Of a stretch of 64,000 nucleotides of DNA, positions 5,793 through 60,701 are shown piece after piece. The notes under the pieces were generated by a model. It saw nothing but the letters and a program-made list of their open reading frames with translations, was not told where the DNA came from and made no database searches. This DNA is from Narthecium ossifragum (Eukaryota > Streptophyta > Magnoliopsida > Dioscoreales > Nartheciaceae). The DNA lies in the NCBI GenBank assembly GCA_963920575.1, contig OY986973.1, forward strand, positions 8,071,601 to 8,135,600. The letters are read 5' to 3'. Both the position numbers and the translations under genes were made by a program. Each line of letters begins with the position of its first letter. The stretch's first letter is position 1.

Positions 5793-5931
5793 CAAGATGT
5801 TGGGAAATCCCTCCCCATGAGAGACGTCGATGAGAAGCGACGAGGACGTGTGGTGTTGGACAAACAAAACTGCAGAAAGACAAAGGATCGATCCTCTCAG
5901 TCCGGATCTCATGACAGAGAGCATGTTTGTG

Positions 5932-5967
5932 GATGATTGATCCTCTTCCTCAAGAGGATCGATCATC
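5932..5967 (+). repeat. Inverted repeat (16-bp arms) in the LTR
   Basis: Arms 5932-5947 and 5952-5967 are complementary except at one position and are separated by CCTC. The right arm contains GATCGATC. The second LTR has a shortened form at about 7882-7908. Confidence 0.8.
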
Positions 5968-6090
5968 GTCTGGGCGGTCAATTCTACGAAATGAAAGGAT
6001 CTATCCTTTCATTAAAGAAGATCGATCTTTTGCGGCATCCGGGCTAAAATCAAGGGTCCAGATTAATCCGAGTGTGGGTTAATTAGTGGA

Positions 6091-6100
6091 TATAAATAGG
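6091..6100 (+). promoter_or_regulatory. TATA box of the copia 2 LTR
   Basis: TATAAATAGG lies downstream of the palindrome cluster and is also present, as TATAAATAAGG, in the 3' LTR copy near 10004. Confidence 0.7.
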
Positions 6101-6420
6101 GTTGGGGTGTAACCCTAATTATGTGTGGTGTAACCCTAATTATGTGTGCTTGATATCAGAAACCATAGAGAGAGAGGTCTGGGGCGGCTTGATAGAAAGT
6201 TGGGCATTCTAGAGTGAATGTATATGGGATGGTTGAGAGAGATTTATATGTGAGAGTTGAGAGATCAAGTCTTGTAAATCTCCTACATATTGAAGTTTTC
6301 TCTCTTCCCGTGGTTTTTTCTTTGCGGTAATTTGCCGGAAGATTTTCCACGTTAAATTGTTGTCTCCTCCTTGTTCTATTGCTTTCATCTTGGTTTTATC
6401 CCCGCCGAATCCCTAACAAG

Positions 6421-6433
6421 TGGTATCAGAGCG
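6421..6433 (+). promoter_or_regulatory. Primer binding site, tRNA-iMet
   Basis: TGGTATCAGAGCG begins two bases after the LTR end at 6418, the standard position and sequence for a plant copia primer site. Confidence 0.85.
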
Positions 6434-6458
6434 AGGTTCATTGGTTCAACAGTTCGTG

Positions 6459-7172
6459 ATGGCGGGGAAGGCCTCAGCTTCTCGTTTCGAGGTTGAGCGA
6501 TACGATGGGAAAAGCAACTTCGGCTTGTGGCAGCAGCGGGTGAAGGATATCCTGGTGCAACATGGTCTCTACAAGGCCCTGAAGGGAAAGAAGCATGAGT
6601 CTAAGACGGCTGAAGACTGGGAGAAGATCGAGATGAAGGCAGTGAGCACCATCAGGATTTGCCTAGCTGATGAGGTCATACACAACGTCATCAATGAGGA
6701 CAAGGCTGCAGGGCTGTGGTCAAGGTTAGAGAGTTTGTTCATGACCAAATCTCTGATGAACAAGCTGTTCCTGAAACAACAGTTGTACTCCTTGAGAATG
6801 AAGGAAGGTTCAGATCTGATAAAGCACCTGAACACCTTCAATAGGATCATCACCCAGTTACTGAGCGTGGAGGTTACAGTGGATGATGAAGACAAGGCCC
6901 TCCTTCTTTTGGCGTCTCTTCTACCTTCCTACGAGCACATGGTGACTACATTACTCTATGGGAAGGAGTCCCTAGAGACAGAAGAAGTCACGGCGGCCTT
7001 GCTCTCCAATGCCTTGAGAAAGAGGTCAACAGATGAGCCTGTCTCAGAGGCACATGTGGTAGAGAGGAAGCGCTTGTATGGGAAGGATGACAAGATCAAA
7101 GGAAAGACAGTTACTTGCTACTACTATGGGAAGGAAGGCCACATCACGGCGATGCAGGAAGTACAAGGATGA
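6459..7172 (+). pseudogene. Copia Gag (Tnt1-94-like), damaged at the zinc knuckle
   Basis: ATG at 6459 opens a Gag-like frame with the typical start (SRFEVERYDGKSNFGLWQQRV), an LxxQLYSLRMKEGSDL-type core and the LLASLLPSYEHMVTTLLYG motif of the UBN2-type capsid domain. At the zinc knuckle the second Cys is Tyr (CYYYGKEGH), and a frameshift just after it ends the frame at 7172. The expected knuckle tail CRKYKDD is found in the frame that ends at 7270. No pol follows. The protein may still have bound RNA of related elements, but nothing here shows function. Confidence 0.8.
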
Positions 7173-7510: not shown

Positions 7511-7917
7511 CGAGTCTTGATTGCGACATCGAGAGTTCGATGAGGTTGATGGAGTCTTCAAGAGTCATGAGGCGCAATGACTTGAAGAAGCGCTTCACAA
7601 GGAGAGTGCAATGTCTGAGCTAGTAAGAGCTCGACGGGGTTCTGGTCTCTCATGAGTCGGGAGGGGGAGCTTGTTGGGAAATCCCTCCCCATGAGAGACG
7701 TCGACAAGAAGCGACGAGGACGCGCGGTGTTGGACAAACAAAACTGCATGAAGACAAAGGATCGATCCTTTCCTCTCAGTCCGGATCTCTTGACAGAGAG
7801 TTGTGTTGGAAAGGATCGATCCTATACCCTATAAGGATCGATCCTCTCAGTCCGGATCTCATGACAGAGAGCATGTTTGTGGATGATCGAAAGAGGATCG
7901 ATCATCGTCGGGGTGGT

Positions 7918-9887
7918 TGTTCGTGGATAAAACGTCGATCTCGCGGGGACGAGATCTCTATTTTATTTCCGAGCAAATCATATTTTAATTTCATATCAAG
8001 AAATTGTTGGCACCACACCCCTGGATCTGCCGATCGCCAATTCGACAGATCCATCATTTACATCCCCGTAGGGAATACCTCCGATTCTAGATCCAATAAA
8101 ATAAACATTTCTTATAACAAAAGAAGAAGAAGAAAGAAAAAAAGAAGAAGAAAATAAGTGAGGTGAGGTATTAAACCGCCACCTTTATTGCCATCCATGC
8201 CATGTTATCACCAGGGGCTTCGAATCCGCTGGGTTTGGGAGCTTTGCTGTCCAAACGTTTGAGAGCGCCGTCCAGCAAGATATGACCTCCGTTTGTCGTG
8301 GGAGGAGCAGCTGCTGGGTTTGATGAAACTGGCTTGGAGATGAGAAGCCTAGAACCGGCTAGAACAGGGGAGCGCTGGTTGGAACGGAGGACGTGCGGCG
8401 AACGGCTGGAGCTTCCGTCGCGGGAACGATGATGGTGGCTGTCCCTCTTCAGAATGGGTTGATGTTCTTGCGCCGCGAGATCACCAAGGAGACGGAACGA
8501 ACGCCGGCTGGAACAGAGAACAAGAACAAAAACAGGGGAAGCTTGTCTTCAAAGCCGCAGGGAGAGAGAGAGCCTTGGCTCGATCTCCGTCGCTGGCGAG
8601 GAACTAAGCTAGAGCAACCTTGTTGAAGGTCCAAGCCGCAGGTGACGAGCAAGAGAGCGAAGGTTGAGCCGCAGGATCGACGAGCCTCCTACAACGTCGA
8701 CCCAGAGACGCGAGCGTCTCAATGGGTTCCGGCTGTGTGGGCTGGATCTACGTCGTCCGGTGATGCGCAACTTTGGAACATCACCAGAACCTCTTCGTCT
8801 TCAACCCTCTTCCTCAGTTTCCTCTTCAGCTTATCCTTCGATTTCTTCAACCAGCTTCTTCTTCAGCCAAGCCTCAATGCCTTCAGCCAAGACCAGCCTT
8901 ACAGCGTTCTTCCACCCAGCTTCGACCAACCCTTTCTCAAGGCCATACTCCTCTATTTATAGGCACGAGAGGCGTATGTCCTCACATAGAATGGGATCAT
9001 GGATCCCTTAATCAAGGGGTATTAATCACGTTAAGATGCTGATCAAGGTCCCTAATCAAAGGGATGCTGATTGCCTTGATGCTGATCCTTTTTATATAAG
9101 GATAGCTACCGTGCAGCCCAGCTGTGTTTTGCCATTGCTTTTATTATTTATTTATTTATTTTTATATGGTATGGGATGAGTGAGGCTGGTTTATATATAT
9201 ATTTTTCATATATATATATGGTATGGACGTGTATAAGGACGACCAACCATGCATCCCATGGAGATTTGCTGATTTTTTGTTTTGGCAGATTTTTCTTTTG
9301 AAGTTCGAAAATGATGTTCGAATTTCAAATTTACCATGATTTGAATATTTTTCTCATGTCCATTACTGTTTGAATATTTGTCCAACTTTAATAAATCATC
9401 TGTGAATATTTATTCCCGTACAGAATATTTATCTGAATTCTGAATATTTACAGGAATTTTACCAAAACATCCTCAGCGGTCCTATATGTTGGACCAAAAT
9501 ATTTTGGAGGGTGGAATGATCGGACTTCGGACAATTGCACCCTGAGGGTGTTAATTGCCCAAGATACCCATGGGGGCTAGCTGTTACAGTAAAATTACCA
9601 GAAGACCCCTGCGTTCATATGGCTTATTTAGGGTGCCGTCAAAGCCATGCAGGGTTGATGTACAATGTAATAGAAAGTCCAGGCCTGTATTTTTGGCTTA
9701 AATTCCTAATACGCCCTTGGGCGGGTGAAATTACCCAAATGCCCCTGGATGCCATCAAAATTAGGACAAGCATTTATCGGGCATTTTAAATATGTTTTGA
9801 GCTTGCTTGAGTCTATTTGATGTTGTTTTGGCTCAAACAAAACGTGGGTACTGCGATCTTTTGGTCTAGCCAAAATTGATGTCAACA
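7918..9887 (+). mobile_element. Solo LTR (1970 bp) nested in the copia 2 LTR
   Basis: The insert begins TGTTCGTGG and ends GTCAACA, and is flanked by GTGGT (7913-7917) and GCGGT (9888-9892), a 5-bp TSD with one mismatch. The 5' LTR of the host element lacks it, which fixes its borders. It has a TATA-like CTATTTATAGG near 8952-8962 and no retrotransposon ORF, as expected for an LTR left after recombination. The family is not represented elsewhere in this window. Confidence 0.75.
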
Positions 9888-9903
9888 GCGGTCAATTCTA
9901 CGG

Positions 9904-9927
9904 AATGAAAGGATCGATCCTTTCATT
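9904..9927 (+). repeat. 24-bp perfect palindrome in the copia 2 3' LTR
   Basis: Centred on GATCGATC, the sequence reads the same on both strands over 24 bases (core GAAAGGATCGATCCTTTC). The matching site of the 5' LTR keeps the arms but has one base changed in the centre. Confidence 0.9.
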
Positions 9928-10366
9928 AAAGAAGATCGATCCTTTGCGACATCCGGGCTAAAATCAAGGGTCCAGATTAATCCAAGTGTGGGTTAATTAG
10001 TGGATATAAATAAGGTTGGGATGTAACTCTAATTATGTGTGCTTGATATCAGAAACCCTAGAGAGAGAGAGGTCTGGGGAGCTTGATAGAAAGTTGGGCA
10101 TTCTAAAGTGAATGTATATGGGAGGGTTGAGAGAGATTTATATGTGAGAGTTGAGAGATAAAGTCTTGTAAATCTCCTACATATTGAAGTTTTCTCTCTT
10201 CCCGTGGTTTTTCCTTTGCGATAATTTACCGGAAGGTTTTCCACGTTAAACTGTTGTCTTCTCCTTGTTCTATTGCTTTCATCTTGGTTTCATCTCCGCC
10301 GAATCCCTAACACAAGACAACATAGAGAAAAGAATCGTCGACCAATGAAGACAATACGCACATTAA

Positions 10367-12172
10367 GGCCTCATTTGGTACGGGGGTTAGGAAAAGTGAG
10401 AATAAGGGATTTTGGGTAAGGAAAAGTGTGAATAAAGTAGTAATTATTACTTGGAATAAGAAAAAATAGAGTGGTAGTGATAAGTCACTAATTATTCATA
10501 ATTAAACCCCTTAAATTACCTTTGTTAGGCATAGAGTGGTTTTCTTTGATGTCATATTGCTTGATTTCAGGTTTAAATAGGTTTTGAGAAGAAATACAAG
10601 AGTTTCGGCTAAGAAGATGAATTTATTTAATAAAGACTGCTTCGTCGCCTGTTAGGAAAATATTCGCCAGATATTCTGTATAAGTCCAAATATTCTGAAA
10701 ATTTAGTACATGATAGAAGACTTCAAGATCTACAATGTTCATGTTGGACACTTTGCGAGATTCCTGATGGTATGATAGCAGAATTCAAGAATACATGAAG
10801 ATACATAAGCTGGAAAGCTGCACCGTCGATGCTGAAGAGAATATTCGCCAAATATTCTTCATTAATTCGAATATTCTGAAATTTTGGAAGATGAAAGAAG
10901 ACTTCCAGATCTAGAACTTTCCTGTTGAAGACTTTCTCAGATTCCGAACAGATTAGCTTCAGAATTGATTACAAATCGGAATTCCGAGTAGGAATTGAAG
11001 AATAAGGAAGCTGATGACGTGGTAGTTATTAACCTAGTCAAACTGGGAAGTCCGATCGATCGGTTTGAGTCCGATCGATCGCTCCGATGACGTCAGCAAC
11101 CCGGAATTTAGGGAAATTAGAGTTTAAGTCCAAATATAACTCCTAATTCCGGGGTTGAGGGTTTCTAATACATAAGAGGGTTATTCCAGCCGAAAATAAT
11201 CATCTTTTGGAGCACTTTTGGAGGAGAAGGTTAGGGTTTTGAAGACGGTGATCTTTCCACGGGGATCGACGGCTTCATCTTCTATACCTATGGCTGATTT
11301 CCAAGAGATGAGTGGCTAGTTTTCTTGTTCTTAGGAATACCATGAAACCCTAGTGTAACTTTTGATCTTTCTTAGTTGGATTTTTGTGAACTTCTCTAAG
11401 TATAATCTCATGAATATGATTTTAATGATTATAGAGTTGAAGGAACAGAGTTCCGTTGACGTATTATTAGTCCTACATGATGATTGTACTTGAGTGTAGA
11501 GATTCAAGAGATAGTTTGCATGTGGTTTGTGATTTACCTTTGAGATAATCTATGCTACGTGAAGATAAGTCATGCTAAGGTCATTAGGAGTAGAATAACT
11601 TAAGATAATGGTAGGACCGAAGATGATTTATGCCAAACAAAGATAGGTTATGCCGTAGGGAACATAAAACCTTCTTTTAGGGATTCGTGTGAGCTTGTAG
11701 CCATACGATCCATAATGCTTAGAGAAGTGATCAAGATGATAACTATGGAAGATTAAGGGTGAAACTAGGGTGAATTGTGTATTTCCTAAGACATCTTTTT
11801 CCATCTGATTAAAACCTTAATATTTTCCTTTGCTTTCTTAGATAATTTCAGTTAGATCAATCTATCATTGAAGTGTTTGGTTTAGATCAAGAGTTTTGAG
11901 AATCGATTTTGGTTTTCCTAGTAATTCCCTGTGGTTCGACTCCGGATTTCACCACTAGTCTACCTAGTAGTATTAGTGATTGAACAAGGATATAAATTTA
12001 AGATTTGATTGAGGTTAGCAACGTTTTAACGACGACGTTTGCGAGCGATCAGTTAGTGGTAAATAGAATATGAATAAATAGATTTTAGTTACTTGGAATA
12101 AGAAAATATGTTTGGGGATAAGTATAGAAATAAGGGGTTTATTCCCCTCTTATTCCCACACCAAACAGACCC
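10367..12172 (+). mobile_element. Tourist-like MITE split by a solo LTR
   Basis: Left end GGCCTCATTTGGT and right end ACCAAACAGACCC form imperfect terminal inverted repeats, flanked by TAA on both sides (10364-10366 and 12173-12175), the PIF/Harbinger target. The sub-terminal GAATAAG-rich sequence is also inverted. Without the nested LTR and its TSD the MITE is about 227 bp, a normal Tourist size, and it encodes nothing. Confidence 0.75.
10478..12051 (+). mobile_element. Solo LTR of gypsy family C (1574 bp) inside the MITE
   Basis: Runs from TGATAAGTCACTAATT to GCGAGCGATCA and matches the LTRs at 40247-41625 and 42030-43341. Flanks GGTAG (10473-10477) and GTTAG (12052-12056) are a 5-bp TSD with one mismatch. 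It contains CCGATCGATCGG-type palindromes near 11050-11085. Confidence 0.8.
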
Positions 12173-16337: not shown

Positions 16338-17694
16338 CGGCTCGTTTGGTTGCGCAAAAAGGTTGGGAATGGAATGGTCAATTCCCGTGTCAAATCACAT
16401 TCCATTGTTTGGTTGGCACTTAACGTCAGGAATGTAATGCTTCATTCCTGACAAGTTGGGAATAGCCCAATCCCATCTGATAGCTCGGACCGGCTCATTC
16501 CGTTCCGAACGATCGGGGGATTAGAAAATGTAATTACTAAACTACCCTTTGATCACTACCTCTCTCCCTCGTCTCCTCTCCCCTGGCTACCTCTCTCCCT
16601 CTTCTCCTCTTCTCCTCTTCTCCTCTCCTGCGGTTACCTCTCTCCCTCTTCTCCTATCCCTTGGCTATCTCTCTCTCTCTTCTCCTCTCCTCCCCTGTTT
16701 CTCTCCTCCTCCGGCTACCTCTCTCTCTCTTCTCCTCTCCTCCCCTGTTTCTCTCCTCCTCCGGCTACCTCTCTCCCTCTTCTCCTTCGGCTGCCTCTCT
16801 CCCTCTCCTCCTCTCCTCCTCTCCTCCCTTGTTTCTCTCCTCCTCCGGCTACCTCTCTCCCTCTTCTCCTCTCCTGCGGCTACCTCTCTCCCTCTTCTCC
16901 TCTCCCACGGCTACCTCTCTCTTCTCAGCCCGACCCTGTTTCTCTCATCCTCCGACGACCTCTCTCCCGCGCCCGAGCCTATTTCGCTCCTCCCCTGACG
17001 ACCTCTCTCCAACGCCCAAACCCATGTGCATGGTTAGCAACGGCCAAGCCGCTCGCTATTAACCCCTGTTTGGGATTAGGCCAGAGCTCTCTCCCTAGAA
17101 GAGAGAAGAGAGAGAGGAAGGGGCTTTGGGAGACCTCGAATGGGAGGAGGACGCCGGAGGAGAAGCAGATGGGAGGGATTCGTGGAAATCGATCGCCATT
17201 TCTTCAGTTTCTCAAGCATCGAATGTGATACTTCTTGTTCTTGATGAGCTTATATAGAATGCTTCCTCCAATATCTTCGCATCTTTGCATCGATCTTCTG
17301 TTTCGCGAGCATGCTATCTCACTCCTATCAAACTAAGTTCCAACTTTCAATCTCCTTATCGCTCATGTTGGGTGTTTGATGTTGTTGAAGGCTCCGGCTT
17401 TCCATCATTTGGAGCCGCCTTGATCCGATCAGTGACTTGAGTCTCACGAGCATTTGCATGCATCTCATTGTGTTCATGCATGTCTGGCTATTTTAGTCAT
17501 TTGTACTTCATTCCTATTCCATTCCCAGCTTCTGTTTGTATACCAAACACGATAATGCTTCACTCCTATTCCCAATCCTGATATCACAAAATCACTTTGG
17601 CAATAGCCCATTCCACTCTTCATTTCGGTTTTCATTCCATTCCATCTTCCAATCCCATTCTGTCCCCCATTCCTTGTGCGAACCAAACGTGCCG
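16338..17694 (+). mobile_element. PIF/Harbinger-type non-autonomous element (1357 bp)
   Basis: Ends CGGCTCGTTTGGTT and AACCAAACGTGCCG are inverted repeats with one mismatch, flanked by TAA on both sides (16335-16337 and 17695-17697). Sub-terminal GGAATGGAATG sequences are also inverted. The inside holds a CT-rich minisatellite and no transposase. Confidence 0.8.
16549..17000 (+). repeat. CT-rich minisatellite
   Basis: Irregular tandem units built from CTACCTCTCTCCCTCTTCTC with CTCCTCCCCTGTTTCTCTCC inserts. It stays open in two plus-strand frames only because CT-rich repeats lack stops. It lies wholly inside the Harbinger-type element. Confidence 0.85.
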
Positions 17695-18521: not shown

Positions 18522-21125
18522 CTAACCTTGAGGCTGAGGTAAAAGTTGTCCTCTCTCAACTAAGTGTAGCATTAGCTTGCCTGCCTCATGTGTGCATCCC
18601 TCTAAGACCAGCCTACTGCTCACCTTCTCACACAATTTAACATCAGGAATCAAATTTCTGTAGAACATCCGGCAGGCCACTTTATATGACTGCAAAGGGA
18701 GACCTTTTTTCAGATAACAATCCATCAACATGTAGCATGTCTCGGCGTCAGTTCTTGATGATGTCCTTAATACCTTCCCAAGGATTTTGTATGCCTCATC
18801 AAGTCTTCCAAATCCACAAAGTTTCTCAATGACCTGGTTATATGCAGTTCTAAACTCCTGCCTTGCTAGGAATTTGTCCAGTAACTTGAGCAACTCCTCC
18901 ACTTTGCCCTTCTCACAGTATCTGTGAATAACTGTCCTATATGTAACAGGCGTAGGAACAATACCCCTCTTGAGCATCTTTTTAGCAAGTTCTGTTGCTT
19001 CTTCAAATCTTCCTTTCCTTCCCAATGCATCAATTACCACGGTGTAAGTTACAACATCTGGATGTCTATTACTCAAATACATATCATCCAACAAAGACAG
19101 CACAGACTCCAAATCACCCTGTTGACAAAATCCATGAATTATGGTGGTAAAGTTTACCACGTTAACAGCACAGCCCTTGCTTTGACACTCCTCCATGAAA
19201 TTCTTAGCTTCGGCTGCCTTCTGTTCCTTGCACAGTGCGTGAATGAGTAAATTAATCTCAGCAGTAGTCGGAAAGAAACCATTCCTTATCATCTGCATAA
19301 CCAATTCACAGGCCTCAGTCAATCTCCCTTCCCTACGAAGTCCATGAATGACAACACTGTATGTAATAGCGTTTGGAGTCCACCATTCCTGTTCGCTCTT
19401 ATTCAACATATCTCTCGCCTCTAATGAGCTCCCGATTCTACACATCCCATTTAACAAGGCAGTGTGAGTAACAGAATTAGGCTTGCAACCATGCCTATAC
19501 ATATGCTTCAACACCTTTCTCGCTTGATCTATCTTGCCTATCCGACAAAACCCGTTAATTACTGCAGTGTAAGTCACTACATCAGGGAGGATGCCCTTTG
19601 ACAGCATCTCGCTTACAATCTCTTTGGCCTCATCCATCCTTCCGTCCAGACAAAATGAATGCACAATCGCACTATAACCTACCTTATCAACTCGAAATCC
19701 TCTCTCTTCGGATTCCCTCAAAAACTGAAGAGCTTCATCTGCATGACCATTCTTCGAGAGCACATGTATAACACTATTATAGGTAACCTGATCAGGAATC
19801 AAATCAGAATCAGTTGTCATCTTCACCAGTAACTCTTTAACTTCTTGAATCCTATTCTCCTTACATAAGAAACTCATCACTGTGTAGTAGCTGATCTTGT
19901 CGGGTGGACAACCTTTGTATGGCATTTCCCCAATCATCTTCAATGCATCATTGACATGGTTCCTGTCACAGAATCCTTTGATCAAGCAATTGAATGTCAC
20001 CACATCAGGAGCAATCCCGACCCTTTGCATCCGGTCGAAGAACATTAAAGCCTTCTCCAACCGATTTGCCATGATAAGAACATGGATGGCCACGTTACAA
20101 ATGGACAATTCTGGGGCGCACCCATCTTTCTGCATCAAATTCAAGACTCTCATTGCACTCCGCAGCTTTCCAGCCCGACTATATGAAACCATCAAATGTG
20201 CAAAGTCTTCCACCCGCCGGCTAATCCCTCGGCGAATCATTAGCCTCATGATCCGCCGTGAAGACACACAAAGCTTGGTCTTGCTGAGCACTTCGAGCAT
20301 AGTATGGTAAGCCTCGGGTGGATGACGGTAGCGCCATTGGCGGTCACCCCAGTAGAAAAAGTTCACAGCCATACGCTCATCAGACTGCAAGCGGAGTACG
20401 GCGGACAGCTGTCGAGGATTGAGGGTTCTGAGCAAATGCCGGAGCTCCGCCTCGAGCTTTCGGTCCCAAGCATCGTGGAGGTCAATCAGCCTGCAAGTGT
20501 TTCTCACCATAGGGTGCCTGGATTCATCTTTTCGGTCATCTTCGGTGGCCAAAGCTTCTTCTTTTCTTGCAGGGGTTTTATCAAACAACTCGAGGACACC
20601 AAAATCATCGCCACCGTCGCAATTTTCTGCTTCCATTTCATTATCGGATTCCTCACTATCGCAAAAATGGCTACTTTCTCCAAACTGGGCGCCCAAGATT
20701 AGATTTTGATCGCCGTTATGTGCTCCATTATGAGCCGATGCCTTCCTCCCATTATTAATCCGTTGGGTTTGCTCTAAAAGACCTCTAAAACCACCAAAAG
20801 GCCCACTTCTCTCGGCCGCAATTTCAAGTTCTTCACGGGCATCTCCAAGAGTGCCCAAAGTAGCGTTGGGCTTAGGATCATCGGCAGATGAGAAAAAGAT
20901 GGGATTTTTTACCGAATAATGGCGAGCAATCGAATCAAAGCGTGGTTTAACAACGACCTCCACGCTTCTTGGATTGAGATACTTTCGAAATGGCGGGGAA
21001 GTCATCGACCTCGGAACCTTATTTAGGGTTTTATTCATCCTATTTGTGATCAACGGCAATTCAGGGAAGGGGAAGCTATACTCGTTGTCATTACCTCCGC
21101 AGTCCGCAGAGCCCGGGAGTTTCAT
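18522..21125 (-). CDS. P-class pentatricopeptide repeat (PPR) protein, 867 aa
   Basis: This single uninterrupted ORF is typical of intronless plant PPR genes. Residues about 270-830 form roughly 15 tandem 35-residue PPR motifs of the P type (recurring patterns such as PDVVTYTAVINGFCRIGKID). No E, DYW or SMR domain follows; it ends shortly after the last repeat (QLLPQPQG). P-class PPRs bind specific organelle RNAs and act in their processing, stability or translation. The long N-terminal part is acidic (about 160-215). The first Met gives an acidic start, while Met30 at 21038 begins a basic Ser/Arg stretch (MNKTLNKVPRSM) that looks like a mitochondrial presequence, so Met30 may be the true start. 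Target and exact orthologue are not identified. Confidence 0.93.
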   Translation of the reverse strand: MKLPGSADCGGNDNEYSFPFPELPLITNRMNKTLNKVPRSMTSPPFRKYLNPRSVEVVVKPRFDSIARHYSVKNPIFFSSADDPKPNATLGTLGDAREELEIAAERSGPFGGFRGLLEQTQRINNGRKASAHNGAHNGDQNLILGAQFGESSHFCDSEESDNEMEAENCDGGDDFGVLELFDKTPARKEEALATEDDRKDESRHPMVRNTCRLIDLHDAWDRKLEAELRHLLRTLNPRQLSAVLRLQSDERMAVNFFYWGDRQWRYRHPPEAYHTMLEVLSKTKLCVSSRRIMRLMIRRGISRRVEDFAHLMVSYSRAGKLRSAMRVLNLMQKDGCAPELSICNVAIHVLIMANRLEKALMFFDRMQRVGIAPDVVTFNCLIKGFCDRNHVNDALKMIGEMPYKGCPPDKISYYTVMSFLCKENRIQEVKELLVKMTTDSDLIPDQVTYNSVIHVLSKNGHADEALQFLRESEERGFRVDKVGYSAIVHSFCLDGRMDEAKEIVSEMLSKGILPDVVTYTAVINGFCRIGKIDQARKVLKHMYRHGCKPNSVTHTALLNGMCRIGSSLEARDMLNKSEQEWWTPNAITYSVVIHGLRREGRLTEACELVMQMIRNGFFPTTAEINLLIHALCKEQKAAEAKNFMEECQSKGCAVNVVNFTTIIHGFCQQGDLESVLSLLDDMYLSNRHPDVVTYTVVIDALGRKGRFEEATELAKKMLKRGIVPTPVTYRTVIHRYCEKGKVEELLKLLDKFLARQEFRTAYNQVIEKLCGFGRLDEAYKILGKVLRTSSRTDAETCYMLMDCYLKKGLPLQSYKVACRMFYRNLIPDVKLCEKVSSRLVLEGCTHEAGKLMLHLVERGQLLPQPQG

Positions 21126-22544
21126 TATACGATGCCAGAGTCTTGGGCTGATAAATTACGGATCCGTTTGGCTGTACATTGTGTTATTTTATAGATGTGA
21201 TTTATTTGTAAATTATGATGAGATGTGATGATGTAATGGTTTAAAATCTGTTTGACATGGCACGTTAATAACTGTGATAAAAAAGTGTGTTCATATAATT
21301 TATTATTTGGGTGTGCGTTTATTTTCAAATATACAGTGTAAAATACTAGTTTGTTATTTAGTCTCTGTGTTTATTACGCTGCGACCAATGTGCGGTCAAA
21401 TGGAAAAATCTATAAACTGCTTCGTGTTTGACGCAGTTTTGACATGGTCCCTACCAGTATGTTATTATTCTTAAATGAGATTTTTATGAATGTGACTGTG
21501 ATCAATTAAAAAAAATATATATTTTGACAACATGAACGCACGTCCAAAGTAACCCAAGGGATGGAAAAAGGATCAGATCCAATTCGCTTATATATGCTAG
21601 CCCAATTGTATGGCGCAATTGATACCAGTCGGTTTCGGGCAGTAAGCCTACAGATACGGGCCGGCTAGGATTAGGCCGAACAACAGATAAACTGCCACGG
21701 CGGCACAGGTTTTGGTTCGTAATTACTTTTGGCTCACCGTAGGGGTGTTTTAGTAAACTAATACTAAAGTCATTCGCTGATGTCAGCATGGACGAGGACT
21801 AGTTAATCCTGACAATACGATTAGGCCGGCACCGGGCGGGGATAGCGGCCCCCCGTGCGATCCACTCAAGCAAAAGACGATTAGTATAAACTAAAATTAA
21901 TTAGACTAACACATATATTATTATTATTATCTATTATATAACATCAGTTTTCATGACGTTTGATATGAAGTATAAAACTATATACGCGTGGTATGCACAT
22001 GTGACATAGGGTTGTAACCAAATAAAGAGAGAGAGGATAGGGGGCCATGGGGGCCCATCTACTGAGTCATATGCCACGTCATAACCAATCTCTGACGTGA
22101 CGCACTCGTGACGTAAGGTTGGTTATTATAGAAAGAAAGGGAGAGAGGGGGTAGCCGTGCCAGGTGGCACGGAGCCCACCTAGTCTGTTTATAAGATGTG
22201 ATTATTTCACGAGTTTGGCTCTTAAATATAATGATATTTATTGGAGCAATTTACATTGAAGAGTATAAACAAATTAATTTTATCAAAAGAGTGGTATGCG
22301 TTGTAAGATTAATTTCCAAAATCTCGTATATAAATATTAGAATATCATAATTAACTGAAATAAAACATAAATGTGTTGATCGCAATGGATGATCCCCAAA
22401 GAAACTGAAAAGTGCGCCTGCTCTCGATTGGGTAAGCCAGAAACAATATGAAGAGTGAAGAGAGGACATAACCTATTTATAGATATCCAGTGAGTTCTCT
22501 CATTAATGGCAAACACTGAATCCAATTAGAAGTGAAACTTTAGT
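21126..22544. other. Gene-free stretch upstream of the PPR gene
   Basis: Contains the presumed PPR promoter and AT-rich sequence with a (TTA)n run near 21916. A near-palindrome GTGCCAGGTGGCAC lies at about 22157-22170. No gene or classified repeat was recognised. Confidence 0.4.
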
Positions 22545-38220: not shown

Positions 38221-38655
38221 ATATTTTTTCTACTAGAGCGGATCTACCATCGGATTTCAATCTACTCCTACTTTTTTTCCTACTCTAACTCCAATTTTAG
38301 TCCATCCACTATTTAACTCCGCCCTTTCTTGACTTCCTATCTCATCCCTTGCGTTTCGATCTCTCTGTTGATCTACTTGCGTTCCTGCTCTGCTCCTTCG
38401 TCTGCTTCCTCTCAGCGACCAACCTGATCACCTCTTTCCTTCGTCTTCCATCCTTCCTCCTCCACCCTCTTCCACCTTTCCGACGTCAACCCCTCCTCTC
38501 TTCAAAATCTTCTCTTCCGACACCGGTGTGCTCCGCCTTTCCGTCCGAGTCCTCACTCTGTTCCTCTACTATGCCCTGCGACATGTTTTCGCTCAATTAT
38601 TCGCAGACACGCCTCGCGCCCCTCGTCAGGCCTAGCCAAATCACTAAATTTCGAT

Positions 38656-41625: not shown

Positions 41626-42029
41626 AACCCCATTCACATACAGGATTGTTAAAGTTATTTTTAATTACGATTAAATATGTTGAAGTGTTGAAAATATGTT
41701 ATGACATATTTTGACTTACTATATTTTTATATGACTATGAGTTGAAAGATTTATTTATGGATATTATTTTTATCTCATGCATTAGAGTTGATGAATATTG
41801 TCATTAATTTCTAATGACATATTTAAGGGGATGTATAGATGTTTGTGGGTATCATCCCTGAAAACTCTCAGGAAACTATAACTCCTCCACTGGGGTAACC
41901 CAGGGATTTAAAGGCTTGTTGCACATGCTAAGTACAATCGTGAGACCTACGAAAGTGGCTAGTTTGATTTATTGTTTTCATTTTATATTTTCTTTGCTCG
42001 AGTACTAGCAAAGTATAACTGGGGGGGTG

Positions 42030-43341: not shown

Positions 43342-43910
43342 TGTGAGGACCTATCCCTCTACTCCTGGGTCTACCGTCTGGATTGGGCCCGTAGCTCATT
43401 GTGAACCGCAAGGACAGTTTGGTAAATTACGCATTTTCAGTTTGTTTCACACCCGCGTGTGCACACACTGACCGTGTTTGTATTAATGTTTGTTTAGAAC
43501 GGTTAGGTGGACCCGGGATTGAAAGATACGGGCTTGGGCTTGTGTTTTAGCCCAAGTCTAGCTTTCTGGGCAAAAGGGATCGATTTTCCCTTCCTAAGAA
43601 GATCGATCTTCCCTTCCTAAGAAGATCGATCTTTTAGCGCCAGAAAATTAAGTTGGTTCGTCATGAAGGATCGATCTCTTCTTGAGGAGAGATCGATCTC
43701 TCATAAGGCGGTTCGTCCGTCTATAGAGCGAACACGACCCCTTCGTTGATTCTTTTTTTTAAATCCGCCGTTCTTGAGCTGTGATCCGGCTGGATTTAAA
43801 AGAGATTGAGGACGATCCGAGGCTTAGCAGCTGGGATTGAAGCTGCTCTAGTCGCGGTATGGATTCTACCTACTTGCTTTTCCAGGTTTGTGAGTTTTGA
43901 GCTTGGATGT
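43342..43910 (+). repeat. Chromovirus LTR fragment (family B)
   Basis: Begins TGTGAGGACCTATCCCTC like the solo LTR at 33780 and stops where an A-type LTR starts at 43911. Contains several GATCGATC motifs, including a perfect 16-bp palindrome at 43687-43702 and a tandem CTTCCTAAGAAGATCGATCT unit near 43590-43635. Confidence 0.75.
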
Positions 43911-44451
43911 TGATGAATGCATGAAAGTGCACTCTGAATAGCCGTGTAACTAGCTTAATTATTGGATTTTGCATCCTTAATTAGTCTCTTTAGTACTATT
44001 TTTATCCTTATATATTGCTTTACAAAGTTATTTGGAATATGCAGGAAAGTGAAGCTAAAGAAGCAAAGATAGCTCATATTCAACATCAAATCTGTGCCTT
44101 CTTGGAACGAACTAGATGATGCCCCATACATTATTGGGAAGCTCTTGAAGTCTAGTTTCCCAGAGTTTTTACAGCTCATGATTTGGAGTTTTCTAGAGGA
44201 AGATATGCCAATTTTAGTACGAGTCAAGCAGGAGCAAGCAGTTACGGAACAAGAAGATCGATCGGATGCCAAAAGAGATTGATCCTCGTTTTGCCGCTCA
44301 TCCGGTAACAGAAAGTTGACAGAGGACCAATTACAAAAAGATTGATCTGAACCTCGGTGATCTAGAAGTGACCCAGTCTACGGAGAAAGAAGTTCGATCC
44401 TTTCCCGAAGAAGATCAATCTTAGTCGGGGCGGTCCAGTTACGAAAAATGA

Positions 44452-44483
44452 GTAAGTAAAGAAGATCGATCTTCTTTGCTTAC
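44452..44483 (+). repeat. 32-bp near-perfect palindrome in the A2 LTR
   Basis: Arms 44452-44467 and 44468-44483 are complementary at all but one position, centred on GATCGATC. Confidence 0.85.
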
Positions 44484-45224
44484 AAAGATCGATCTCTTTA
44501 CGGATGACCTGAAATGAACAGACCATATTTAATTCAAAGGCTAGGGTTTCTTACCCATATTTAAGGAGGTCGTCCAAAACAGACACCGGGGGGTTCTAGG
44601 GCACTTTTGGAGGAGACCACACGAAGATCTAGGGGTTTTCTTTCTTATCTTTCTTATGAATATTCTGGTTGTTTTTATGATGAGCATGAGTGGTGAATCC
44701 CTTCGCTAAGGGACCAATGTAGCCCTAACTGAATCATTCTATGTTATTGAATAATGCTTATTTAATCAGTTTATATTTCTTCTTTCATTCATTATTATAA
44801 TTGTGATCTTCATACTTTTACTTGGCCACTAGAACTATTGCAGATTGTTTTGTATGAGATTGGGTGAGGGTTCATTCCCTAATCTTGCAGGATCTATGAA
44901 TGCATGAGTTTAAGTCGAAACCGGGTTCAAACTAAGACAATTCTTGGTTCATAATTGTTCTTCAGAGCTTAATGAATTCTTGATTTACACTTAGTTATGG
45001 GTTCATTAGTTAGGGTTAATTGAGGGTACTTGGTGAAGACCGCGGCTGAACGGATCATCATACCGGAAGAACGAATCCTTGGAATTAAATTGAGATGTTA
45101 ATAATTCAATACATAGAATGAGGATTTTATGGTGAAATCGGCACCTTAGTCTCCGTCCATTATATTTCTATCATTTTCTTATTTTGTTATTAGATCTTTT
45201 ATTTTTAATACTTCATATTTCTTA

Positions 45225-48690: not shown

Positions 48691-49326
48691 GGTTTCATCA
48701 ATAGTATCTCCACCAAAGCTTGAGTTAAAACCTCTTCCCAGTAATCTGAAATATGCATATCTTGGTGATAATGAAACCCTTCCTGTTATTATTGCTTCTG
48801 ACATTACTCCATTGGAAGAGGAAAACATATTGAGAGTTCTTAGGGAACATAAGACGGCAATAGGCTAGACAATTGCAGATATTAAAGGAGCAAGTCCTAC
48901 TGTGTGCATGCATCATATTATTCTTGAAGAGGACGCCAAGCCTATAAGGGATGCCTAGTGTCGCCTTAAATTACTTGATGTTGGTGTTATATATCCTATT
49001 TCTGATAGCAAATGGGTAAGTCCAGTTCATGTAGTCCCTAAGAAATCGGGAATAATAGTTGTGAATAATGAGGACAATGAGCTTATACCTACGAGGATGA
49101 CAACTTGATGGCGTGTCTGCATCGATTATGACAAGCTTAACCCTGCTACTAAAAAGGATCACTTTCCCTTACCTTTTATCGATCAAATACTTGAACGTTT
49201 AGCTGGTCACGTATTTTATTGTTTTCTTGATGGATTTTCAGGTTATAATGAAATAGCCATCGCCTATGAGGACCAAGAGAAGACTACATTCATCTGCCCA
49301 TTTGGAACATTTGCGTATAGACGGAT
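48691..49326 (+). pseudogene. Gypsy reverse transcriptase start (copy A2), cut by insertion
   Basis: LELKPLPSNLKYAYLGDNE, VSPVHVVPKKSG, WRVCIDYDKLNPATKKDHFP and FICPFGTFAYRRI are visible. TAG replaces a TGG near 48868 and a CAG near 48957, and TGA lies near 49107. The sequence ends at 49326 against a chromovirus LTR. Confidence 0.8.
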
Positions 49327-51695
49327 TGTCACACCCCGACCCAGAAAACCCATCTAGGATGAGGCGTGAGGGTTCCTATCACTATTCATCTCCAATTGGC
49401 GCGATACAAAGTGGAAAAGACAGATAAATTTAAACAATTTATATTTCAGAGGTGAAACAGAAATTCAATTCATATATATACATCAAGTTGTACCGATACA
49501 AAATTCATTATCAAACTCCTCCAACGGGAAGACTTTATACAATAATCCAAAATTCCTCGAAAGATGTTTATAATATACAAACTATCAAAAAGGTACAACA
49601 GACGTCCTCCAGCAACCTCAAACGCCTCTGGAAGTACACATGCCGCCAAACGCAGATCTCGCCGGCTCTACTGAAGAAGAACTTGCGCCTGCACCTGCAA
49701 ACGCAGCCCGGGTAGGAGTGAGCGATAAGCTCAGTAGAGTTCTACTCTACGGCACACAGAAAGGAGGAAAACAACAACAGTGTTATCTGTCCGCTCAAGT
49801 CTAACGGATGCCACGGGTCCCATAACCCTATCGATGTCCCAAGGGCTCATGTCATGAAACCTCTCTCCTGAATATGTTACCAGGAGGCCAAGGAACAGTA
49901 ACATGCAGGATCACCCTTACCCAAGCAGGAATACCATGCCTTGGGGAACCACGTCGGGAACGCATCGACAACCATCCTTAGTACTTAGCCTTAGGAAGAC
50001 AACACGACCTCTAAACCTCAAAACATTGATCAGAGTCAACAACAACACATCCTCGATAACAAGAGATTCAATTATAATCACGCCCTAATCCTCACTATCC
50101 AGCCACGGTCCTAAGGCTAGATCCGAGCTACCCGAGAGCCTCGGATCGGCGATCAACCCATCGTCCGCCTAACCTCATATGCCTCTAATGCATACAATGC
50201 ATGAACCTATACAAACATCTACCCTAGATGTCTCTATATGCCACAACATCAGTATAAGTTCAATAGATATACAGTAGCCCTCGGCACTCGCCTGCAAGAG
50301 GCTAAGGTTCCACAATTCCACATTAGCTAGCACTCATAGCTAGCTAATGGCTAGGCAACCAAAAGAGCATTAACTACTTATCAAACCAAGTATTAATTAC
50401 AGTTAAAACCACAATTCTCCCAAAGGGGATAAGCATGCAATTCAATCCTCCATTTCAATAGAAATCCTTGGAAAACTCCATGAAAACAACGTGCATGCTT
50501 CCAAACATGCTTAAGTATCTATCACAAACGAAAGCCGTTCAAAGAAACCCAGAAAATAGTGTTCAAGGGCTCATGGTCGATGCGACGGTTGACCGTGAGG
50601 CCACGGTCGATGTCACGGTCGACCGTGAGACCAAAGAGAGGAATAACACATGGGTGACGGTCGATCGGTACATCGACCCTGGGAAGCCAAAATGGAGACA
50701 GAGCCTGACGGTCGACCGTGAGGCAAAACGGAAAAAGAAAAGATCCCGCGGTTGATCCGAGCATCGACCCTGGGAGACCAAAAACCAGACAGAGCCTGAC
50801 GGTCGATGTGACGGTCAACCGTCAGGCCCAGAAAAAGCGTATCAACGCTTGACGGTCGATCCACCGATCGACCGTCGAGCCTAAGGCACAGTTTATCAGA
50901 ACAGTGCCGGAAATCCAATTTCTTGGATTTGAATGATCAAATCAAGTTGGAAGTTGATGAAACTTTGCAAGTATGCGTAATAGATTATGGTTAAGCTAAT
51001 GATACGAATAAAACACGACTTTGATGGTTAAATCTCAAACCTAGGTCTCAATGGCCAAAATTTGACAAAACGGCGATAATACAGAAATCGTCCGATAAAA
51101 TACGAAAACCAAGTTATAGAGCTACTCTACACAAGCCATAATACACATGCTACAAGTTACACAACATTTTTATGTATTTCTTCAGTGAAAGTACAAGAAA
51201 CCTATCCTAGGAGAATCCGATCACAGGATCGAGGTAGAAACACCTACTTGAGCAAGTAGGGCAGTTCCTCCACGCGTCCAACCAGTCAAACCGCCAAGAT
51301 CCACGTCTCGAAAGCCGCACTCCGAAACCCTAGCACAGCCGTAGGAGAGAGAGAGAGAAAGAAAATGACATGAGAAGAGAAAGAAAGAGAGAGAAAGGGA
51401 CAGGCCTTATATAGAGATCCGGACCGATCTCGGTCGTCCGATTCGATCTTTCCCGATCGAGCGCCGATCCTCCGATCGAACGCGGCCTTAAGATTCTAAT
51501 CAAACACATACATCAATCCAAGGCCGTGTGTGCAACGCGGGTGTGAAACCGATCACCAGGGGCATATTTACCAAAATGCCCTTGGGGCTAAAAACCACCA
51601 TACGATCGCCCGATCGTACCCGACGCGGAACCAAGCCAAAAGGAGAACGGCCTTCGACCCACGTAGTCGAGCCAGGTCGGAGGGACGGGCCCTCA
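49327..51695 (-). repeat. 3' LTR of the minus-strand chromovirus (about 2369 bp)
   Basis: Related to family B LTRs. Contains a cluster of GTCGAC palindromes at 50570-50880, including a perfect 16-bp one at 50613-50628, and a second cluster of CGATC motifs (51425-51490) next to a TATA-like CTATATAAGG (complement of about 51405-51414). Confidence 0.8.
50613..50628 (-). repeat. 16-bp perfect palindrome TCACGGTCGACCGTGA
   Basis: Perfect dyad in the chromovirus LTR. A 22-bp version with one mismatched pair lies at about 50704-50725. Confidence 0.9.
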
Positions 51696-56575: not shown

Positions 56576-56677
56576 ACAGGGATGCTCTACTCCTAGAACT
56601 ATCCTAAGCCGCGCTCAAAACCTTAACCGCAAGCCTAATCCTATCCCTGGGACCTACATCCTGCTCTGATACCAAGT

Positions 56678-57264
56678 TGTCACACCCCGACCCAGAAAAC
56701 CCATCCAGGACGAGGCGTGAGGGTTCCTATCACTATTCATCTCCAACTCGCGCGATACAAAGCAAAAAAGACAGATAAATTTAAACAATTTATATTCCAG
56801 AGGTGAAACAGAAATTCAAGTCATATATATACATCAAGTTGTACCGATACAAAATTCTTTATCAAACTCCTCCAAGGGGAAGACTTTATACAATAATCCA
56901 AAATTCCTCGAAAGATGTTTATAATATACAAACTATAAAAAGGTACAACAGACGTCCTCCAGCAACCTCAAGCGCCTCTGGAAGTACTCGCACCGCCAAA
57001 CGCAGATTCCGCCGGCTCTACTGAAGAAGACCTGGCGCCTGCACCTGCAAACGCAGCCCGGGTAGGAGTGAGCGATAAGCTCATTAGGGTTCTACTCTAC
57101 GGTACACAGAAAGGAGGAAAACAACAACAGTGTTATCTCTCCGCTCAAGTCTAACGGATGCCACGGGTCCCATAACCCTATCGATGTCCCAAGGGCTCCT
57201 GTCATGAAACCTCTTTCCTGAATATGTTACCAGGAGGCCAAGGAACAGTAACATGCAGGATCAC
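56678..57264 (-). repeat. 5' LTR of the minus-strand chromovirus, truncated
   Basis: Matches 49327-49913 with scattered substitutions and stops at 57264, where an A-type LTR begins. About three quarters of the LTR is missing. Confidence 0.85.
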
Positions 57265-58844
57265 TGATGAATAAATTTTATATCTCGCAAGTATACGAAT
57301 CGGTGCAATCAGTATAGTAGCAAGACGAGTATCGTACCCACAGAGATTTGTAGAAATTATTAGAGTGAAACGCTAACAAACAGAAAAGAAAGAAAATAAG
57401 GAAGGTAAAATAAGAAATATGAAGTCTCGAAGATAGATGATCTAATAACGAAATAAGAAAACGATGATAATATGATGGATGAATACTAAGGTTCCGATTT
57501 CGCATTGAATCAATCAAGATCTCAGTTTAATTCCAAGGGCTCGTTCTTCCGGTATGATGATCCGTTCGGCCGCGGTCTTCACCAAGTACCCTCAATTAAC
57601 CCTAACTAATGAACCCATAACTAAGTGTTAATCAAGAATCTATTAAGCTCTGAAGAACAATTATGAACCAAGAATACTCTTAGCTTGAACCCGGCCTCGA
57701 CATAAACTCATTCATTCATAGATCCTGCAAGATTAGGGAATGAACCCTCGCCCAATCTCACATACAACAATCTATAATACTTCTATTGGCCAGATAAAGG
57801 TATTTAAGATCTCAGTTATAATAATGAATGAAACAAGGAAAATAAACTGATAAAATAATCATGATCCAATAACATAGAATGATTCAGTTAGGGCTACATC
57901 GGTACCTTAGAAAAGAAACTAGCCACTCATGTTCACCATGAGGGCAACAAAACTAATGGAGAAATAAAGAAGAAATAAGAAAAGAAAATCAAGCCTGGAA
58001 CCCTTCTCCTCGCCTCCAAACGCTGCCAAAAAGTCCTCCAAAAGTCCCCTTTTGATAACCCTAAGTATCCTATTTATAGGCCTAAACTCGGGTTAAATCA
58101 AAACCGTTGATTTAATTCACTGGAAACGTCCGATCGATCCTCCTCGGGATGTTGGATCGATCGGTCTCATTGAAATCTTCAACTTCTATTTACGCCCGAG
58201 TCCGATCGATGGACGGATCGATCGAACTCTACTCCTCTAAAAAGCGTACGTTCTGTCAACCTTTAATTCCCAAGTCCGATCGATCGGACTATGAGTGTTG
58301 GATCGATCGGTTGAGTAAAAATCAGCTGTTTTTGGCTTTTCCCGAGTCCGATCGATCGGACCATTGGTGTCGGATCGATCGGACCCCTTTGGAGGGATGG
58401 AGAGATCGATCGGACTTCGTTCAGCCAAAAAAAATAGGTTCTGTCACGTTTTTGCGTAGTCCGATCGATCGGCGGATCGCTCGGACTTCCAACTTATTTA
58501 CTGTGCTGCCATTCAGACTGCGCCATCGGTACTCAAAATTGCCGTAACTTCCTCTAGGAAACTCGGAATCACGAACCGTAAAATTCTCCAGAATCTAGAC
58601 TTCAAGAGCTTTCCAACCATATATGGCACATAATCTGATTCTTCATGAGCAGGTACAGATTAATCTTTAAAGTTGATCCATGCACTCTTTTCAGCTTCTT
58701 TTCTCCTTTTTCCTGCATTTTCCAAACAACTATGTGAAGCAACATATAGATATAAAAATAGGAATAAAGATGTTGATTAAAGATAATAATCTAGCAATTG
58801 AGATGGTTATAAGGCTATTTAGAGTGCACTTTCATGCACTCATC
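57265..58844 (-). mobile_element. A-type gypsy LTR in inverted orientation (solo or terminal)
   Basis: On the minus strand it runs from about GATGAGTGCATGAAAGTGC to TTTATTCATCA, i.e. a complete A-type LTR of about 1580 bp. Flanks (ATCAC on the left, TCCGTG/GTGTT on the right) do not form a TSD. The cassette at 58125-58490 is of the CCGATCGATCGG type, with a perfect 18-bp palindrome at 58273-58290. The TATA-like CCTATAAATAGG is at about 58069-58080. Confidence 0.8.
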
Positions 58845-60701
58845 CGTGTTCTTGCTGGATCTGAGCTCGTTTGAGGAAGATCTAAGGCCTAGCAGCTTGG
58901 ATTGAAGCTGCTCTTGCTTAGGTAGGGATTCCTCCCTACATCTTTTCGAGTTTTTGGGTTTTTCCGATTTGTGATATGTTCTTATGCTTAGATCTGTTAA
59001 TATACTTGTTGGTTTTCCGTGATTTCACCGGTTTTGGACTCGTGGGATCTTGATCTATCAGATCCCAGAGTTTTGAGAAGTTTGGATGTATTTTTCGGCG
59101 GTATTTCTCGCCGGAAGTACGCCGGAGAACCCATCCGGATCCATCTCTTTTGAGGAGAGATCGATCCCTTCTGAGGCGTCATGCCCAGCCCGAGCAGGAT
59201 CGATCCCTCGGCTGAAGAGAGATCGATCTTTGTCTTGGCTGAGATGACGGGTTCCACGTCACGAAGAAGATCGATCCCTCTGGAGGAGGAGATCAATCTC
59301 CTTCGGTTGACAGCGACGAGCTCTCTTAAGTATTAAGGAAATCGATCCCCTTGGGAACGGAGATCGATCCCTTAGTGGCTGAGAGGTGTTTTCAAGTGGA
59401 TTTTGCCGCGGGGCTTTGAATGATGGTTTTCTCTACTGTTTTATAACTGGTACATATGATTAAGCATGTTAGCCCTATAATAGGGCAGTGGTGAACCGGG
59501 GGAGTGATGACTCCAGGGATGTTTAGAATAAACGGGCGGGTAGCCCTACAGCTTTCCCTCGCCTTGCATGCCGACGTGCGCCGAGGGCTTTATCTGTTAT
59601 ATCTGTAAGCTGTTGTTTGCGGGGCTGCTTCCCGGTGCAGGTGTGTACAGGACTGCTGACAGTTGGTGGTGGTACCACTGTAGCAGTTCCTAGACCTTAT
59701 TTACATGTTCACCACCCCCGGCCCGCAGGGTGCCGTGCCCAGACCTTGTTATTTATGTCATCACATATTGCTGCATGCTTACATGTATTGTCCTGCGCAT
59801 GTTCATAGCATGCAATGTGTTGTGCATTAGTTGCATCTGTGTAGGGCGTTGCCTATCCGGGGCTTTCGGGTAGTCGGGATCTAGCTCTAGGACCGTTGCG
59901 GGTAGCTTGGTCCAGGTTTCGATTTGTAGTATTCAGTTATTTTCGATGATAGGGTTAGATGACCTGAATACATGTTGCTTGATGATTATAGAGGTTGTGT
60001 CGGCCTCGAGCCAGATGTTGTGGGTGCAACCGGTGTCGGTTCTTGTCCCATGGGGGCCGTCGGAGTGAGTCCAGCCCAAGCAGTGTCTGTTCCTGCCCGC
60101 AGTGGCGACCAGTGTGGGACCTGTTCGTTTGGGTGACCACAGCTGGAACCCTACGACACTAGGTGTATCCAGGATGAGCCCAGTCCTTTAGGGTGACCAT
60201 GGTTGGGTATGCCTAGGGACACCGGCAAAGGGTTATGGGACCCTTGCTGCACGCCCAAGTTTTTCTTGAGGGTGGCACTGTTGTGTTCCCTCCCTTGTGA
60301 GTGTCGTAGTGTAGTGCCTCTGTTGAGCTTAGTGCTCACTCCTACCCGGCTGTGTTTTACAGGTGCTAGCGCTAGCTCTTCTTCGGTCACCCCTACCGGG
60401 CCGGTGTTTGGTGATGTGGCGGCGTCTGGCAGTACTTGAGGAGCGGCAATCTATGTTTTTACCTTTTGTTATAGATAGTCTCCTACGGGAGTGATAAATA
60501 TATAATTTCCCTGTTTGAGGACTTGTATCTATTCTAGTTCAGTCTTTGGGTTTGTCATATTTGTATAATACAGGATGATTGTGAATTGTTAGGGTAACCA
60601 CTACGATTAGAGGAAAACCTCGCCAAAATTTCCGCAGTCGGTTAGGTTCCGCTTCGTGTCGCCCGGCCTAGTTGGGCCTACGCGGGTCGGGGCGCGACAA
60701 C
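58845..60701 (+). repeat. 5' LTR of the plus-strand chromovirus, left-truncated
   Basis: Resembles the right part of the family B LTR (33780-36059), ending GGGGCGCGACA. A run of GATCGATC motifs with symmetric flanks lies at 59150-59375. Confidence 0.8.

Follow-up and report, generated by a model that had tools for sequence, protein, structure and literature searches.

Clusters of short palindromic sites centred on TCGA recur in the long terminal repeats (LTRs) of several retrotransposon lineages in a 64,000-nucleotide stretch of the Narthecium ossifragum genome (contig OY986973.1, positions 8,071,601 to 8,135,600; hereafter the window). We read these clusters, called cassettes below, as putative enhancer arrays of fast turnover in the U3 (unique 3′) part of the LTR that may serve a host dimeric factor, and put the probability of this reading at about 0.6. 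All counts and comparisons were made in this single window, much of which, outside a pentatricopeptide-repeat (PPR) gene, consists of nested LTR retrotransposons according to self-comparison and Pfam.

The palindrome content of the window was compared with that of 60 block-wise dinucleotide shuffles. The core GATCGATC was found 38 times, whereas the shuffles averaged 1.0 and never exceeded four. Palindromes of at least 12 bp centred on TCGA numbered 19 (shuffle mean 1.1, maximum four), and these two excesses rule out a chance origin. The 15 other palindrome centres combined yielded 15 palindromes against approximately 15.5 in shuffles; the next-best centre, ATAT, yielded five against 1.4, with no comparable excess elsewhere. 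Exact GATCGATC cores lie mostly (35 of 38) within 2579 bp of LTR clusters, whose limits were drawn around the sites, so that the density there is descriptive. The other three are at 39307, 52194, and 54353, two of them in the interior of a chromovirus-like element. One-mismatch cores in the clusters number 21, and eight of these are GATTGATC or GATCAATC, which would be the expected product of methylated-CpG loss. No cluster gave a match to Rfam at gathering thresholds. Insertion preference for palindromes was rejected as an explanation: it is weak, covers 5–6 bp at target sites and is a different phenomenon (PMC6911290).

The cassettes are carried by a copia family (F1), a gypsy-type family (F3), a chromovirus-like gypsy family (F4) and an LTR not placed in a superfamily (F2; Table 1). 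F1 has a copia-type gag between its LTRs (PF14223 at 6417–7172, E = 3e-33). F3 is classed as gypsy-type by its gag (PF03732, E = 3.8e-10, above the cut-off); its matches to an aspartyl protease (E = 0.0022) and to a PF00078-type reverse transcriptase (in a frame of 82 codons that follows F3D; E = 2.1e-4, 21.5 bits, cut-off 29.6) were below cut-off, and no copia-type domain was met for F3 in the Pfam comparison. The frames of F4b- and F4b+ contain gypsy domains above cut-off, including reverse transcriptase, protease, and the zinc-binding domain of integrase (PF03732, PF08284, PF00078, PF17921, and PF24626), together with an integrase core below it (PF00665, 18.5 bits) and a weak chromodomain match (PF00385, E = 0.1, 13.0 bits, cut-off 25.1); some homologues among those listed carry PF00385. 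For F2, no coding evidence for the superfamily was found, and no systematic search for it was made. The copia element E1 has no GATCGATC in its LTRs or interior, and its LTR showed no similarity to five cassette regions (scores 16–20). The core is also absent from the PPR gene.

A first-pass annotation, made from the sequence alone, had described 13 such clusters in the LTRs of at least six unrelated types and had suggested sites for dimeric factors, cruciforms, or RNA hairpins as possible roles. The five palindromes it quoted are all present (AAAGGATCGATCCTTT at 7756–7771, AAGAAGATCGATCTTCTT within 44458–44477, AGTCCGATCGATCGGACT at 58273–58290, GAGAGATCGATCTCTC at 43687–43702, and TCACGGTCGACCGTGA at 50613–50628). 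Of the two outcomes it named as contrary to its idea, no excess over shuffled controls and derivation of all copies from one family, neither was found: the excess exists, and the copies span more than one family, a single-family origin being ruled out by Pfam, self-comparison, masked-core, and cassette comparisons. We likewise favour dimeric-factor sites in U3, but the diversity of families was overstated. Its gypsy A, C, and D all belong to F3, a single lineage represented by F3A, F3C, F3D, and F3G. In place of six types, the window thus has three lineages backed by some coding evidence, together with one LTR not placed in a superfamily. Four of its clusters (30035–30215, 34010–34060, 40640–40680, and 51425–51490) lack any perfect palindrome centred on TCGA that reaches 12 bp, and a cluster at 7756–7903 was missed. 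Pairing of sites at 21–23 bp, replacement of cassettes in similar LTRs and modules common to families go beyond that annotation.

The spacing of the cores was assessed on exact pairs within 70 bp. Nine of the 26 pairs were 22–23 bp apart against a random-placement mean of 0.8, a number reached in none of 20,000 simulations. Because tandem duplication inflates the pair count, each LTR was also given a single vote, with spans drawn around the sites. An exact pair at 21–23 bp was then present in five of eight LTRs (p = 0.0055), the exceptions being F1-5, F2a, and F3A. With one mismatch allowed, all eight LTRs had such a pair (p = 0.0005); F2a scored only via an overlapping register, so seven of eight is the safer count. 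A spacing of 19 bp was seen in the exact pair of F2a and in the CGATCG variants of F4a and F4b-. Units of approximately 71–72 bp recur within clusters.

The position of the clusters, which the first-pass annotation had described as often just upstream of a TATA box, was confirmed for 11 of the 13. In these, a TATA-like box lies 30–98 bp past the start of the final core (exact or with one mismatch) or, for the minus-strand array at 51425–51490, directly after the array; the pattern was picked after viewing the sequences, and TATAAA or TATATAA is present in only six of the 11. The distance was 71 bp in both LTRs of F1, 72 bp in F3A, 61 bp in F3C, 69 bp in F3D, 61 bp in F3G, and 96–98 bp in F2, and the sequence at this distance is TATAAATA in the 5′ LTR of F1, the second part of its 3′ LTR, and F3G. 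The claim did not hold for 50570–50880 (minus) and 59150–59375, which lie downstream of the promoter region.

The symmetry of the arms was tested in the four arm positions nearest the core, using 29 distinct arms of 35 sites (three non-cluster sites omitted). Arms paired in 59 of 116 cells, against 40.1 when right arms were permuted across all families (p = 0.0012). The arm consensus differs by LTR group (AAAG/CTTT, AGTCC/GGACT, and GAGA/TCTC), and paired arm changes, as proposed in the first-pass annotation, are supported between families only. For 19 pairs selected for a spacing of 21–23 bp, inner, outer, and site-centred pairing were alike (43 to 46 of 76 cells) and all exceeded permutation over families (p = 0.0001 to 0.0032); no one level of symmetry is therefore singled out.

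Turnover of cassettes within lineages was estimated from LTRs with similar flanks. In the sequence around the cassette, F3C and F3G agree at 284 of 334 aligned bases on the left (85%) and at 749 of 828 on the right (90%). Their cassettes scored 17.0 against a mean of 16.8 under a single-base shuffle (234 of 500 shuffles as high), a dissimilarity that arises partly by construction, as cassette limits were the ends of self-comparison matches. The F3C cassette measures 192 bp and is of the GGTCGACC type; that of F3G measures 389 bp and contains nine GATCGATC. The cassettes of F3C and F3D were also within the null (66 of 500). Those of F3A and F3D were weakly above it when compared with F3G (23.0; 9 and 14 of 500, respectively), as shared cores would lead one to expect. 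Between F4a and F4c, 82 of 97 flank bases are kept and the arrays are barely alike (18.0, 23 of 500). These alignments show, in F3C and F3G, that a whole cassette can be exchanged for another while the rest of the LTR stays conserved.

Similarity between families was measured by alignment. With cores masked, the promoters of F1 and F3A have approximately 60 bp in common, ending with TATAAATAGG at the TATA box. This stretch scored 41.0 (maximum 24.0 in 2000 shuffles); similarity was at chance level before the palindromes (940 of 2000) and after the promoter (1039 of 2000). Over the whole U3, the F1/F3A score was 47.5, compared with a maximum of 26.0 among 400 other segments of the window. The GGTCGACC unit aligns among F3A, F3C, F5, and the F4b- array, and all six comparisons exceeded 1000 shuffles (F3A/F4b- 53.0, maximum 32.5; F3C/F5 96.0, maximum 30.0). 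In these alignments, copia F1 shares some modules with F3A, and the F3 lineage shares some with F4. With cores masked, no clear similarity was found for F1/F4c, F1/F4b+, F3A/F4c, F3D/F4c, or F3G/F2a (71 to 437 of 500). Where flanks do not align, a common core and spacing would need convergence or an exchange too old to see.

The spacers also gave a separate lead. TGACAG, or CTGTCA on the other strand, is present in spacers of F1, F3A, F3D, F3G, and F4b+, i.e., in five of six LTR groups, with eight occurrences against 0.7 expected; it was chosen from many k-mers, and the figure is uncorrected.

In the reading we favour, the unit consists of two sites that share a core of 8 bp, nearly invariant in sequence (GATCGATC, with GGTCGACC in the second type), and each core would be bound by a dimer of one host DNA-binding factor. 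Paired GATCGATC sites stand 21–23 bp apart (19 bp in F2a and the CGATCG variants), mostly ending 60–100 bp before the TATA box. As the cores are about two helical turns apart, two dimers on one face of the DNA would fit, and these may bind jointly and so drive transcription. A fixed core with variable arms fits sequence-specific recognition better than a hairpin with TCGA in its loop. For the GATC core, GATA- and GARP-type factors would be conceivable candidates. The lineages of this genome may have come to use the same host factor. The shared modules would most likely stem from exchange between elements, by recombination or template switching; where flanks fail to align, a convergent origin of core and spacing would be likeliest.

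A number of results weigh against this reading. Arm pairing within families was not significant (59 against 56.1 permuted, p = 0.29). Tandem duplication is evident at 43578–43633, and some pairs arise in this way. The arrays at 50560–50900 (minus) and 59130–59375 are downstream of the promoter and should be in the transcribed part of the F4 LTRs; in F4b-, the CGATCG array directly precedes TATATAA, and the GGTCGACC array follows some 500–850 bp downstream of it. Turnover also has exceptions: F4a resembles F4b- through the array (202 of 236 aligned bases), and F3A and F3C have the GGTCGACC unit in common. Within F3, the promoter match of F1 is confined to F3A: the F1 stretch scored 23.0 with F3G (4 of 2000 shuffles as high), was weakly similar to F3C (19.0, 71 of 2000) and was at chance with F3D (14.0, 960 of 2000). 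A 24-bp spacer is common to F1 and F3D (25.0; with only the spacer compared, 2000 shuffles reached at most 20.0, and with the whole masked U3 searched, 4 of 500 were as high) and has no match in F3A (359 of 2000). With cores masked, F1 has no flank in common with F4c or F4b+, nor F3G with F2a, and a single mode of origin thus cannot cover all cassettes. The own coding sequence of F3A is not in view, and the evidence base is one 64-kb window. Finally, 12 of 13 clusters were predicted to fold more strongly than their 60 dinucleotide shuffles (z from -3.0 to -8.4); for comparison, 40 random 250-nt windows with 20 shuffles each had a mean of -0.6, with 5% below -3.

The folding counts towards the main rival explanation, which invokes RNA or cruciform structure: the U3 copy at the 3′ end of the transcript would fold into hairpins that serve the element or are cut into small RNAs by the host. 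The pairs 5935/5957 and 43669/43691 each fold as a single, longer hairpin whose loop is 4 nt, and in maize Sireviruses a small-RNA hotspot has been reported at the palindrome clusters (Bousios et al. 2016, as cited in PMC10760457 and PMC5311732). However, the z-scores are partly circular, as any palindrome folds well, and one cluster lacks the excess (z = -0.15). A site-centred hairpin would moreover place the invariant TCGA in the loop, which is free to vary, and the variable arms in the stem. We consider this explanation unlikely.

Somewhat less probable still is neutral tandem-repeat turnover, in which a palindromic unit captured or born once has no binding function and owes its spread to slippage, unequal crossing over, and gene conversion between LTRs. 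The plain tandem duplication noted above, the 71–72 bp units repeated within clusters and the homology of GGTCGACC units between lineages are all consistent with it. It does not account well for an identical core and pair spacing in lineages whose intervening sequence fails to align, or for the near absence of cores outside LTR clusters, where two of the three belong to the F4 interior. A single source for all clusters, either one ancestral LTR or a small element that had inserted into several LTRs, would suit the alignable F1/F3A and F3/F4b-/F5 modules but is highly improbable given chance-level similarity outside the cores for F1 against F4c and F4b+, F3D against F4c, and F3C against F3G, and no insertion scar or target duplication was noticed around the cassettes on reading the sequences, no systematic test being made.

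The enhancer-array reading can be extended to a broader proposal, which we regard as possible but doubtful: that copia and gypsy LTRs in one genome draw on a common pool of exchangeable paired-palindrome enhancer cassettes, which would move between the two and take one another's place at a set position ahead of the TATA box; regulatory input would then evolve independently of the carrier. If the pattern is genome-wide, a palindrome-rich U3 would be a solution of several lineages in one host and not a peculiarity of Sireviruses, and the fixed pair geometry would point to one recognisable host factor. Cassette replacement in conserved LTRs offers a direct route to the question of how mobile elements alter regulation, and lets one ask whether copia and gypsy elements trade promoters.

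Table 1. Retrotransposon features of the window (positions within the window; core, GATCGATC)
Feature	Position	Strand	Details
E1 copia element	225–4993	minus	identical 242-bp LTRs, no GATCGATC; internal negative control
F1 copia 5′ LTR	5798–6418	+	cores 5886, 5957, 6020; one-mismatch cores 5935, 5998
F1 3′ LTR, first part	7672–7917	+	cores 7760, 7814, 7836, 7896
F1 3′ LTR, second part	9888–10312	+	24-bp palindrome 9904–9927, core 9934
F2 LTR-like repeat	10478–12051	+	cores 11054, 11073
F3A LTR-like insertion within F3 element	24313–26953	+	3′ LTR from ~25335; cores 25914, 25956; one-mismatch cores 25730, 25752, 25978; GGTCGACC unit 25788–25862
F3C, 3′ LTR of F3 element	29686–31125	+	GGTCGACC-type cassette 30033–30224
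F4a chromovirus-like LTR start	33782–34140	+	CGATCG array 34002–34045, 19-bp spacing
F5 unassigned locus with GGTCGACC unit	38085–38240	+	homologous to F3A, F3C, F4b-
F4c chromovirus-like LTR part	43340–43900	+	cores 43601, 43624, 43669, 43691; 43578 with one mismatch
F3D, 5′ LTR of F3 element	43911–45224	+	cores 44256, 44464, 44487; one-mismatch cores
F4b- chromovirus-like LTR	49326–51695	minus	CGATCG array 51425–51490, GGTCGACC array 50560–50900
F3G, F3 LTR	57261–58844	minus	nine exact cores in cassette 58121–58509
F4b+ chromovirus-like LTR	58871–60700	+	cores 59159, 59198, 59221, 59269, 59362

E1 is probably a recent insertion, because its two LTRs are identical and its frame of 1411 residues is uninterrupted. 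F1 has a sequence resembling a primer-binding site at 6421 (TGGTATCAGAGC) and one resembling a polypurine tract at 7662, ahead of the 3′ LTR (AGGGGGAG); the flank CAAGA recurs after the 3′ LTR. Its interior spans only approximately 1.25 kb, with no pol among frames of at least 200 codons. The 3′ LTR of F1 is interrupted within the palindrome region by 7918–9887 (about 1.97 kb), in which no LTR-like ends were seen, although no dedicated study was made. F2 has relatives at 40247–41625 (core 40667) and 42029–43017 (no exact core). A TGACGTCA palindrome is situated a few bases past a GATCGATC core in two F2 LTRs (11088–11095 and 40682–40689) and occurs nowhere else in the window.

F3A was assigned to F3 by its U3 only, in which 125 of 156 aligned bases agree with F3C, and no target-site duplication was found at the boundaries tried. 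The LTR of F3D ends at ~46214, after an interruption. F4b+ is followed by a site resembling a primer-binding site at 60703. Two F3 LTRs lie 13–27 bp from homologous stretches of F4 LTRs at 43806–43898 and 58871–58962; the F3 LTRs have opposite orientations there and adjoin the F4 stretch from opposite sides. The two Rfam matches in the window, both to the small nucleolar RNA R71 (RF00097; 23992–24097 and 46752–46857, minus; 42.4 and 47.7 bits, gathering threshold 40), are antisense within the gag region of two F3 copies, i.e., in F3 internal regions. The PPR gene is encoded at 18522–21155 (minus) and is best matched by a sequence from Ensete, at 65% identity over 95%. A compound tandem repeat of 370 bp rich in CCTCTCTC was detected at 16553–16926.

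The first-pass annotation knew of no described equivalent of the cassettes; a precedent does exist in the palindromic repeated motifs (RMs) upstream of the TATA box in Sirevirus LTRs (Bousios et al. 2010, PMC2829016). These are boxes of ~10–20 bp with at least eight copies per element, clustered in the upper half of LTRs that themselves diverge strongly. They include CGGTCGACCG (in a Vitis element) and ACAATCGATTGT (in Tnd-1), and 12 of 13 have a CGG-CCG signature. On the basis of a Ty1/copia data set, RMs were stated to be Sirevirus-specific and absent from classic retrotransposons. The LTRs described here are similar in holding several palindromic boxes each, in the TATA-like box after 11 of 13 named clusters and in the GGTCGACC type, whose core is CGGTCGACCG and whose arrays in F3, F4b-, and F5 contain the CGG-CCG signature. 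In contrast, the commoner core GATCGATC is without this signature, and the carriers include two gypsy-type lineages. A Sirevirus carrier has several AGGGGGAG tracts and an AT/TG attachment, whereas F1 has one exact AGGGGGAG, joined by CT. The sites here are paired at 21–23 bp, and the cassettes appear swapped or shared across families; the passages on Sirevirus RMs are silent on pairing.

Other systems are partly similar. As in the palindrome region of maize Sireviruses, the cassettes form a palindrome-rich cis-region of the LTR that varies greatly in sequence and is predicted to fold strongly; maize Ty3 elements are generally without an obvious structure peak (PMC10760457), unlike the gypsy-type LTRs of the window. 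ONSEN, a Ty1/copia element of Brassicaceae, also has putative factor sites in its LTR, in this case for a heat-shock factor and linked to activation, but differs in its motif, in its known stimulus and in being described there for copia families only (PMC9780303). In plant LTR retrotransposons, chimeric LTRs and recombinant elements are known to arise by template switching and recombination; the cases described in the cited accounts are between related elements and do not include a U3 module moving between copia and gypsy (PMC1950507, PMC4079200). Our literature searches, in the portions of the sources available, found no earlier account of such cassettes outside Sireviruses. What is new relative to Sirevirus RMs is the range of carriers, the GATCGATC core, the pairing of sites, the replacement of cassettes as blocks and their sharing across families.

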